Shown piece after piece: positions 9,413-53,938 of a DNA stretch of 64,000 bases. Source of the stretch: Sulfolobus sp. A20 (GTDB lineage: Archaea > Thermoproteota > Thermoprotei_A > Sulfolobales > Sulfolobaceae). The stretch is from positions 434,001 through 498,000 of the forward strand of contig NZ_CP017006.1 in NCBI RefSeq assembly GCF_001719125.1. The letters run 5' to 3'. Both the position numbers and the translations under genes were made by a program. Below the pieces are notes generated by a model, which worked only from the letters and a program-made list of their open reading frames with translations, was not told the DNA's origin and searched no databases. How positions within the stretch are numbered: the first letter of the stretch is position 1; each line of letters opens with the position of its first letter.

Positions 9413-9499
9413 GGGCCCGTAGCTCAGCTAGGTAGAGCGCTCGGCTCATAAGAGCGCTGAGAAACCGAGTGGTCCGGGGTTCAAGTCCCCGCGGGCCCA
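9413..9499 (+). tRNA. tRNA-Met (CAU), elongator type, with 13-nt intron
   Basis: The acceptor GGGCCCG pairs with CGGGCCC plus discriminator A. The anticodon stem CTCGG/CCGAG encloses CTCATA, a 13-nt insert (AGAGCGCTGAGAA) and the final A, giving the spliced loop CTCATAA and anticodon CAU. The insert sits at the canonical 37/38 position. G1:C72 and the lack of three consecutive G:C pairs at the base of the anticodon stem argue for the elongator rather than the initiator; a CAU tRNA-Ile is a less likely alternative. A TATA-like CTTAAAAA lies about 27 bp upstream. Confidence 0.9.
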
Positions 9500-9550
9500 C
9501 CTTGATGCCGCAGATTATACTTTTTAAGCTTCTGCTTCAGAATTGTATTT

Positions 9551-10882: not shown

Positions 10883-10991
10883 TGCGGGGGACGGGATTTG
10901 AACCCGTGCAGGCCTTCGCCAGCGGATCTCTTATTTTTATGGGGCCTAGATCTTAAGTCCGCCCCCTTTGACCAGGCTCGGGCACCCCCGC
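10883..10991 (-). tRNA. tRNA-Leu (UAA) with 24-nt intron
   Basis: On the minus strand: acceptor GCGGGGG with CCCCCGC plus discriminator A. The anticodon stem GCGGA/TCCGC holds CTTAAG, a 24-nt insert and a final A, giving the spliced loop CTTAAGA and anticodon UAA. The insert is at the usual 37/38 site and can form a bulge-helix-bulge. The body is nearly identical to the other two tRNA-Leu genes. On the minus strand a TATA-like ACATTTAAGG lies near 11020-11030, about 28 bp upstream. Confidence 0.92.
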
Positions 10992-51962: not shown

Positions 51963-52382
51963 ATGAATCCATACGAGTTTTTCGATCACACTGCAGATAT
52001 AGGTATTAGGGCTTATGGAAATTCACTAGAGGAAGCTTTTTCTAACGCTGCCTTAGCTGTTTTCGAAATAATGACTGATACTACTAAAGTACAGCCGTTG
52101 GAATATCGAGAGGTGTTTCTAAATGGATATGATCTCGAAAATTTATTATACAAATGGATAGAAGAGTTGCTATATTACTATGATACCGAATTGATGCTGT
52201 TCAGTAAGTTCGATATTGTAATAAATGAAGAAAATATGGTTTTACAAGGAAAGGCATGGGGAGAGAGGTTTAATGAAGCTAAACATGAAAGAAGAACTCT
52301 AGTTAAAGCCATGACTTATCACGAGATGTCTATACAAAGATCCGATAACAGATTCATAATTACTTTTGTCGTTGATATCTAG
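51963..52382 (+). CDS. Archease
   Basis: A 139-residue protein: YEFFDHTADIGIRAYGNSLEEAFSNAALAVFEIMTD at the start, LYKWIEELLYYYDTE in the middle, and the closing HEMSIQRSDNRFIITFVVDI. Acidic residues (Asp8, the first Asp of DIG, and the final Asp) bind a metal. Archease activates the tRNA-splicing ligase RtcB, which joins exons of intron-containing tRNAs such as those in this window. It is 117 bp from the Ced operon and overlaps the archaemetzincin gene by 23 bp, tail to tail. Confidence 0.92.
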   Translation: MNPYEFFDHTADIGIRAYGNSLEEAFSNAALAVFEIMTDTTKVQPLEYREVFLNGYDLENLLYKWIEELLYYYDTELMLFSKFDIVINEENMVLQGKAWGERFNEAKHERRTLVKAMTYHEMSIQRSDNRFIITFVVDI

Positions 52383-52905
52383 AAATAATATTGGAAATCT
52401 TCATTCTGCAACTTTCGCAAAAGTATTTACTCTTTTTGTCAACGTCTTCTATATTAACGCTAAAATTCATTACGCAACCATGATTTTCACAGTGTCTTAA
52501 ACCTAAGGTATGTCCTACTTCATGAACAACTTCTTTTATAACTCTTTCTGTGAATAAATTCAAATCACTCTCTCTCTTATAAAATTCCTCTCTGAGTCTA
52601 CTAGTGAATATTATGCAATAGTTCTCCACGGCTAGTCCGAAAATAAAGTTATAACCATTAACATATCCATCTGCATCTAACAAAAACACTACTGAGTCAT
52701 ATTTTAAATTATATTCATTTTTTAAATACTTTAGTAATTCAGCAGCATTATACTGCAATCTTTCCCAGTTAAAACTTGATATCGGTAAATATCTTCTAGT
52801 ATCAAGCAATATGTCAACATCAAAACCATATGTATTTAAATGGCTGGATATTTCCTCCAATATACTCTTTTCCATTAACGATAAAGGTATAATGAGAACT
52901 TTCAT
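52360..52905 (-). CDS. Archaemetzincin-like metalloprotease
   Basis: A 181-residue protein with the full archaemetzincin signature: HEVGHTLGLRH at 128-138, C139, C144, M146 (MNFS), and CESC at the end. The first zinc is held by three histidines with a catalytic Glu129, and the second zinc site is a four-cysteine knot unique to this family. There is no signal peptide, so it is probably cytoplasmic. Substrates are unknown. The gene is transcribed alone, its promoter lying in the 52,906-53,000 region. Confidence 0.92.
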   Translation of the reverse strand: MKVLIIPLSLMEKSILEEISSHLNTYGFDVDILLDTRRYLPISSFNWERLQYNAAELLKYLKNEYNLKYDSVVFLLDADGYVNGYNFIFGLAVENYCIIFTSRLREEFYKRESDLNLFTERVIKEVVHEVGHTLGLRHCENHGCVMNFSVNIEDVDKKSKYFCESCRMKISNIISRYQRQK

Positions 52906-53019
52906 ACCTCAAACCTCATATTAACTTTACCATGATATTACAGGCCCTTACATGTATTAGGGTGACGAACTTAGTTTTAATACGGTTGTTTAAAAATTTT
53001 TATCTAACTTAGAGGGAAA

Positions 53020-53115
53020 GGGAGAAAATATAAATGTAGGGACCCCTGGAGACCCTGCTTCATTGGCCCCATATACTCTTTTTTGGGCTCTCCAAGGGTG
53101 TCGCCAGGTCCCCGT
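53020..53115 (+). ncRNA. Candidate structured non-coding RNA
   Basis: A GC-rich island of about 75 bp in AT-rich flanks can form a long hairpin: GGGA (53039-53042) with TCCC (53109-53112); CCTGG (53045-53049) with CCAGG (53104-53108); GAC/CCC of 53050-53055 with GGG/GTC near 53096-53102; TTGG (53063-53066) with CCAA (53092-53095); CCC (53067-53069) with GGG (53085-53087) around an AT-rich loop. A TATA-like sequence sits 25-30 bp upstream of the predicted start. It has no C/D boxes and no terminal ACA, and no similarity I recognise to SRP, RNase P or 5S RNA. Confidence 0.55.
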
Positions 53116-53134: not shown

Positions 53135-53144
53135 AATTATAAAG
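53135..53144 (+). promoter_or_regulatory. TATA box of tRNA-Phe
   Basis: AATTATAAAG at 53135-53144 is about 25 bp upstream of the tRNA-Phe 5' end at 53167. Confidence 0.6.
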
Positions 53145-53166: not shown

Positions 53167-53254
53167 GCCGCCGTAGCTCAGCCCGGGAGAGCGCCCGGCT
53201 GAAGTTTAAAAAGCAGGGACCGGGTTGTCCGGGGTTCAAGTCCCCGCGGCGGCA
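53167..53254 (+). tRNA. tRNA-Phe (GAA) with 14-nt intron
   Basis: The acceptor GCCGCCG pairs with CGGCGGC plus discriminator A. The anticodon stem CCCGG/CCGGG holds CTGAAG, a 14-nt insert (TTTAAAAAGCAGGG) and a final A, giving anticodon GAA. The insert is at the 37/38 position. The T-arm is CCGGGGTTCAAGTCCCCG. The gene lies 20 bp before the target-site copy flanking the 656-bp element. Confidence 0.92.
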
Positions 53255-53282
53255 CTTTAATAAAATCTTTCATTGATGTTAG

Positions 53283-53938
53283 GTGTGTGGACAACAATTT
53301 CATCCACCTCCATAAAATTTTATTCTAACTTATGCTAAATAGATTTCGAGTAAATTGTATTGAAGAATATTTTTAACCATCTCGTTATTGTGTTCTCTGT
53401 TGAGTTCCATGTGGAGTCCATACTTGCTAGTTTTAGGCTTCTGAACACTTACTAAGCTTGCCAAAAGTTTCAATACCATGTTTTAACCAAGAGAATGCCT
53501 TGTAGACTTATCGTGTAACTTTATCCCTCCAATTCTCAAGCTTACATAAACGTGGAAACCACTCTTACATGAAGAACACAACTAGCCTAGACTCGTAATG
53601 CCTAACAACCCATCTCACCATTAACCCTCGACAACGAGTAAATGATCCCCATGCTTAACATCAACCTTAACCTCGTAATTAACATTAGCCAACTTGTGAA
53701 AAACAAGGTAGTGTGAGGTAGTAAAGTCCTTTAGCCTAGCAAGTAAAAGGCTAATACAATCTCGTCCAAGGAGTGGAACCTAGGCTTAAAAGGGTAGAGA
53801 TAATTTGGGTGAGGGCGAGAAAATCAAACCTATTGATATTCTCGCTCCAATAAACAACTCGTCCTCATCCTAAAAATACTTTTCCACGATAAAGAAAATT
53901 CAATTTATATCAAAACAACCAAATTGTTGTCTACACAC
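53283..53938. mobile_element. 656-bp non-autonomous transposable element with 18-bp terminal inverted repeats and 8-bp target duplication
   Basis: The ends are GTGTGTGGACAACAATTT (53283-53300) and the inverted GTGTGTAGACAACAATTT (53921-53938), 17 of 18 matching. GATGTTAG is directly repeated on both sides (53275-53282 and 53939-53946), an 8-bp target duplication. The interior has only decayed minus-strand frames. One 50-codon stretch (53621-53779) carries LVFHKLANVNYEVKVDVKHGD, and a neighbouring frame reads FHSLDEIVLAFYLLG, so this looks like a frameshifted transposase remnant. Both arms match the 220-bp element at 10526-10745. I cannot assign the insertion-sequence family. Confidence 0.85.

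Follow-up and report, generated by a model that had tools for sequence, protein, structure and literature searches.

What is encoded in the short GC-rich island that sits between an archaemetzincin gene and a tRNA-Phe gene in Sulfolobus sp. A20? The island is part of a stretch of 64,000 nucleotides, referred to in the following as the window. On one side it is flanked by the archaemetzincin (peptidase M54) gene on the minus strand (52360-52905), whose product matches Pfam Peptidase_M54 with E=9.8e-44, and on the other by a plus-strand gene for tRNA-Phe (GAA) with an intron (53167-53255). ARAGORN names this tRNA Ala in the window and Phe in nearly all relatives, where it often has an intron as well. 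No open reading frame of at least 60 codons was found over the island. Rfam 15 yielded no match to it on either strand, at the gathering or at a relaxed threshold, and the same holds for ten relatives. Likewise, the C (RUGAUGA) and D (CUGA) boxes of box C/D sRNAs are absent near the ends of the aligned sequences, and Rfam gives no C/D match at the locus. An earlier note, made from the sequence alone, had proposed that positions 53020-53115 form a folded RNA of unassigned kind on the plus strand, with its own TATA box. The fold of the plus strand (116 nt) is slightly worse in energy than that of shuffled sequences (z=+0.95; 170 of 200 shuffles equally good), and the trimmed island folds with a z of about -1 on both strands. 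As shuffled sequences are at least as stable, the case for such an RNA could not rest on folding energy.

We conclude that the island is almost certainly an H/ACA guide. Overall, we strongly favour a box H/ACA small RNA with one hairpin that lies on the minus strand and has U2599 of the 23S rRNA and U928 of the 16S rRNA as its proposed targets. We consider the assignment to the guide class firm and the two targets sound hypotheses, the simplest reading being that both are served.

The first line of evidence is conservation. In a nucleotide search of 60 related genomes, the island turned up in the region upstream of the tRNA-Phe gene across the whole genus and for most of the family. With a covariance model trained on 19 copies, 30 of 31 Sulfolobaceae genomes gave one match each, with E-values from 1e-8 to 1e-22, and the sole genome without a match is 71% complete. 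A divergent, weak homolog (G047; E=5e-4) comes from another family of the same order. A search of the phylum with the model R2 returned only Sulfolobaceae and G047, which is itself part of R2, so that its recovery there is not independent. The ORF-free island that the earlier note had seen is thus not only present and able to form a long hairpin, but also strongly conserved.

The second line of evidence is covariation. For the structure test, 25 distinct copies were cut to their paired parts and aligned without gaps. In the H/ACA structure, 93.2% of the cells are standard pairs, compared with 85.3% in shuffles, and 38 cells carry double-sided changes, compared with 13; none of 500 shuffles reached either value. 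This shuffle control leaves the relatedness of the copies in, which is removed in a second control with the pairing partners slid by one column, and there the pairing falls to about 60%. The outcome was the same when the apical stem and two divergent copies were included. A structured Sulfolobales RNA missing from the standard lists, as had been suspected, is therefore borne out by its conservation across the Sulfolobaceae, its covariation and the lack of an Rfam match, and it came through the covariance search and the check for compensatory changes that had been suggested for it.

The same alignment also bears on the strand. In the same columns, the minus strand keeps standard pairs in 303 of 325 cells and the plus strand in 281 of 325, because U-G pairs of the one become A-C in the other. 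This better pairing across species indicates that the RNA is encoded on the minus strand. When all copies are placed side by side, the minus strand ends the hairpin with ACA, with one exception (L058). The long hairpin can form on the plus strand too, and a folded plus-strand RNA would accommodate that much; we nevertheless regard this reading as scarcely credible, since its pairing is worse and there is neither a conserved promoter nor a conserved ACA on that strand. The TATA-like TTTAAAAATTTTTA (52989-53002) that had been put forward as its promoter is not conserved: TTTA[AT]A occurs near the right distance only in L040, and this upstream stretch is protein-coding in most relatives. The statement that a terminal ACA is missing is true of the plus strand only, at which the earlier reader had looked; on the minus strand, the ACA lies at 53037-53035. 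The proposed boundaries were close to those of the core RNA (53035-53113). Only one of the four helices listed, GGGA/TCCC, belongs to the conserved structure; with CCTGG/CCAGG paired, the pocket described below would be closed, and TTGG/CCAA and CCC/GGG are not conserved pairs.

Read on the minus strand, the 79-nt core hairpin with its ACA box (53035-53113), supported by conservation and covariation in the family, has the order 5'-GGGGACCU-GGCGAC-ACCCUUGGA-(apical part)-AAU-GAAGCAGGGU-CUCCAG-GGGUCCCU-ACA-3', and its 5' end is predicted near 53113-53115. The lower stem is formed by GGGGACCU (53106-53113) and GGGUCCCU (53038-53045). It has eight pairs, of which five are changed on both sides among relatives; about seven to nine are typical of the class. 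Above it opens a two-stranded pocket of GGCGAC (53100-53105) and CUCC, which together with the following AG forms CUCCAG (53046-53051). GCGAC and CUCC are found in all 30 Sulfolobaceae loci as well as in G047, so the pocket is invariant while the stems and the apical loop vary. The upper (GA) stem pairs ACCCUUGGA (53091-53099), which ends in the GA of the K-turn, with GAAGCAGGGU (53052-53061), and both of its strands covary. It is topped by the three-nucleotide K-turn bulge AAU (53064-53062) and an apical C-stem and loop, which together span 53062-53090. In nearly all relatives, the bulge reads NNU with a GA after it. The ACA box (53035-53037) lies below the pocket, exactly 14 nt from its closing pair, where the class has ACA or ANA at 14-16 nt; this distance is the same in 29 of 30 loci, and the box is missing only in L058, the most divergent copy.

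These features agree with the rules described for archaeal H/ACA RNAs, which call for ten layers up to the G-A pairs of the K-turn, an ACA 14-15 nt from the closing pair and a lower stem of 7-9 bp (PMC4652768). Upper stems of exactly ten pairs occur in species such as L010, L012 and L018, and those of L010 and L012, for example, end in G-A/A-G. The stem in the window has nine pairs, a one-base bulge and three G-A pairs; the same arrangement is described for Pab105.1 and Pab19, whose upper stems likewise carry a single bulged base and stacked G-A pairs (PMC4652768). Consequently, the minus-strand RNA displays every structural hallmark of an archaeal H/ACA guide RNA that a sequence can reveal, and the locus is no longer of unassigned kind.

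Among characterized representatives, Pab35, Pab40, Pab105 and Pab19 of Pyrococcus and Afu46 of Archaeoglobus are built from the same single-hairpin unit, with a lower stem, a pocket and a stem of about ten layers up to the K-turn. The H/ACA sRNAs of these two genera also place the ACA 14 nt from the closing pair, as the RNA in the window does, but differ from it in pocket and genomic position. The H/ACA-like RNAs sR203-sR210 of Pyrobaculum are likewise crenarchaeal pseudouridine guides with a K-turn, but their lower stem is truncated, whereas the RNA described here has a full lower stem of 8 bp. A member of the class from the same order of Archaea is Sso1 of S. solfataricus, which guides Psi35 of tRNA-Tyr, as cited in PMC4652768. 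We considered whether our RNA could be Sso1 and set this identity apart after inspecting the pocket and reasoning on the tRNA anticodon loop: a guide of the Sso1 type needs a 3' strand that is complementary to the U33-G34 side of that loop, but CUCC puts U opposite U33 and so cannot guide U35 of tRNA-Tyr.

How might this RNA be transcribed? A TATA-like TTTATA (53138-53143, minus strand) lies about 30 nt upstream of it; read on the plus strand, the same element is the TATA-like element of tRNA-Phe. In 28 of 29 loci, a TATA-like hexamer precedes the RNA by 27-32 nt. It is also 21-26 nt away from the 5' end of the divergent tRNA-Phe, and it is nearly palindromic. On the simplest reading, the H/ACA RNA and tRNA-Phe thus probably share one bidirectional TATA box. 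The idea that the RNA has a promoter of its own therefore holds for the conserved element upstream on the minus strand, but not for the plus-strand TATA box for which it had been formulated.

Downstream, the RNA is followed on the same strand by the archaemetzincin gene, at a distance of 129 nt in the window. In most relatives, an archaemetzincin-like start codon is found 0-18 nt past the ACA, and in L051 and L056 it overlaps the ACA. This arrangement could mean that the RNA acts in cis, as a leader at the 5' end of the archaemetzincin mRNA, with a K-turn and hairpin that are bound by L7Ae and thereby control translation, much as L7Ae of S. acidocaldarius controls its own mRNA via a K-turn in the 5'-UTR (PMC5539422). 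Yet a leader would need neither an invariant pocket nor an ACA at a fixed distance of 14 nt. Moreover, the RNA is intact in L038, L039, L040, L043, L054 and L057, where no adjoining archaemetzincin-like start was found, and also beside the open reading frames of L035, L044, L046 and L051, which have lost the HExxH zinc motif or the Pfam match. As it persists where no such neighbour was found or next to a degenerate one, the RNA appears to be kept for its own sake, and we judge a purely cis-acting leader to be very improbable. A combined role is somewhat less improbable but still unlikely: the guide RNA could double as a 5' leader for this mRNA, with one TATA-like element driving both this transcript and tRNA-Phe. 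Because the ACA abuts or overlaps the archaemetzincin start in most Sulfolobaceae, assembly of the H/ACA particle could then decide on translation, and if this were true, a guide for rRNA modification would be tied to the supply of a tRNA. The degenerate open reading frames of L035, L044, L046 and L051 have kept their place and reading frame and are possibly non-catalytic descendants of archaemetzincin.

Further features of the window concern the tRNA genes and their surroundings. In the AT-rich gap past tRNA-Phe, two near-perfect inverted repeats of 18 nt (53283-53300 and 53921-53938), 620 nt apart, resemble the termini of a small insertion element that has decayed. Rfam finds a tRNA gene at 10883-10991 (minus strand) that ARAGORN misses and another at 9413-9501 (plus strand) that ARAGORN cannot name; both probably contain introns. 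Finally, the C/D box sRNA sR20 (RF01140; 58832-58886, plus strand) is located directly upstream of tRNA-Gly and stands beside tRNA genes in relatives, too.

Which uridines, then, would the H/ACA RNA guide? Its pocket predicts a target of the form 5'-GGAG-U-N-GUCGCC-3'. In our target scans, no rRNA uridine fitted both pocket strands perfectly, and 75 of 500 shuffled pockets reached an equally good top score, which makes for weak target statistics. The two sites that we propose complement each other in this respect. At U2599 of the 23S rRNA (ACAGGGUCGUCGC), which aligns with E. coli 2457 through the GAUAACAGG motif and belongs to the peptidyl-transferase region, the 5' guide GCGAC would form five contiguous Watson-Crick pairs directly after U-N. 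The GUCGC that they involve is identical in all relatives examined. The energy of this 5' duplex, -8.0 kcal/mol, is better than the cutoff of -6 kcal/mol that reportedly sets productive guides apart (PMC4652768). The 3' duplex comprises 3 bp, which drop to 2 bp in G013 and G021 and are three Watson-Crick pairs in G011; a 3' duplex of a single pair is found in one productive guide (PMC4652768). By summed duplex energy, the site ranks 31st.

U928 of the 16S rRNA (UUGGAGUCAACGCC), which corresponds to E. coli 966 in helix 31, takes second place by the same measure among about 706 rRNA uridines. Here, it is the 3' guide CUCCAG that pairs well, with 6 bp in every relative read. On the other side, two bases beside the Psi-C dinucleotide remain unpaired before CGCC forms 4 bp, and the 5' duplex amounts to -7.3 kcal/mol. 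S. solfataricus carries this uridine as m1acp3Psi930 (PMC11698992). At the equivalent position in yeast (Psi1191 of the 18S rRNA), the H/ACA snoRNA snR35 guides the first step towards m1acp3Psi, followed by Nep1 and Tsr3 (PMC7026641). As snR35 is a eukaryotic snoRNA, its likeness to the present RNA lies in the target site, and no homology in sequence is claimed. In G013 and G016, CGCC of the 16S rRNA has changed to CACC, which breaks one of the four 5' pairs while the guide is unchanged. Owing to these mismatches, we weigh U2599 equally with U928 rather than favouring U928 alone. The chances that U2599 is a target appear evenly balanced, and for U928 we would likewise not lean to either side; the two are not mutually exclusive. 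Since the full invariant pocket is explained only if both sites are served, one pocket acting on both U2599 and U928 would be the best reading of the pairing patterns.

The 16S rRNA genes of G016 and G013 (L133 and L134) have helix 31 in the form GGAGUCAACACC instead of the usual GGAGUCAACGCC, next to the hypermodified uridine of the P site. Two other sites were set aside. U852 of the 16S rRNA (helix 27) has the best summed energy of all, but many relatives whose pocket is unchanged have GCCGC in place of its GUCGC, and U2879 of the 23S rRNA is not conserved. An H/ACA guide for some other RNA, such as a tRNA, an mRNA or a different rRNA uridine, would account for the missing perfect match to both pocket strands. 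This strikes us as a less probable outcome, though one with appreciable weight, given that, among the conserved sites that pair best, one is a uridine whose pseudouridylation is known in the group and another a peptidyl-transferase uridine with invariant pairing.

On the preferred reading, the guide would act as its family does. After transcription from the TATA-like element presumably shared with tRNA-Phe, L7Ae would bind the K-turn, and Cbf5, Nop10 and Gar1 would assemble on the upper stem, the pocket and the ACA. The pocket strands would pair with the rRNA on both sides of the U-N dinucleotide, and Cbf5 would convert the target uridine to pseudouridine. Genes for Cbf5 and Nep1 are present in the genome. 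The Cbf5 gene, located outside the window (G000:C1:701178-702154), is split over two frames with a stop codon between them, in keeping with the intron that crenarchaeal cbf5 mRNA is known to contain.

When the class was searched for this pocket as a pattern, the matches outside the Sulfolobaceae were mostly due to chance, apart from one conserved RNA upstream of 16S. This GC-rich candidate of about 85-110 nt is found in another family of the order (L078, L079, L080, L082, L084 and L089) and, in five of these six, precedes the 16S rRNA gene, at a distance of about 380 nt in L078. Its sequence, GCCCGCGGCU...AGCCGCGGGC-ACA, features an invariant 5' block, GGCGAC, CUCC 14 nt before the ACA, a K-turn-like GGAUGAG motif and an extra small hairpin, and Rfam shows only rRNA there. 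It looks like another H/ACA RNA, whose kinship to that of the Sulfolobaceae is not proven.

To our knowledge, Sulfolobales have few known H/ACA guides, and we found no assigned guides for several of their rRNA pseudouridines. The RNA described here is absent from Rfam, and we assign it on comparative evidence without claiming its first discovery. A study of small RNAs in S. acidocaldarius counts two H/ACA RNAs (PMC5539422), one of which may be the present gene. The covariance model fills a gap in Rfam, and the locus offers a worked case of a structured RNA that was overlooked through reading of the wrong strand. The candidate sites are the P-site hypermodification of helix 31, which is shared with eukaryotes and whose first step there depends on snR35, and a uridine of the peptidyl-transferase region. 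A family-wide guide with an invariant pocket thereby provides a testable assignment for two functionally central uridines.
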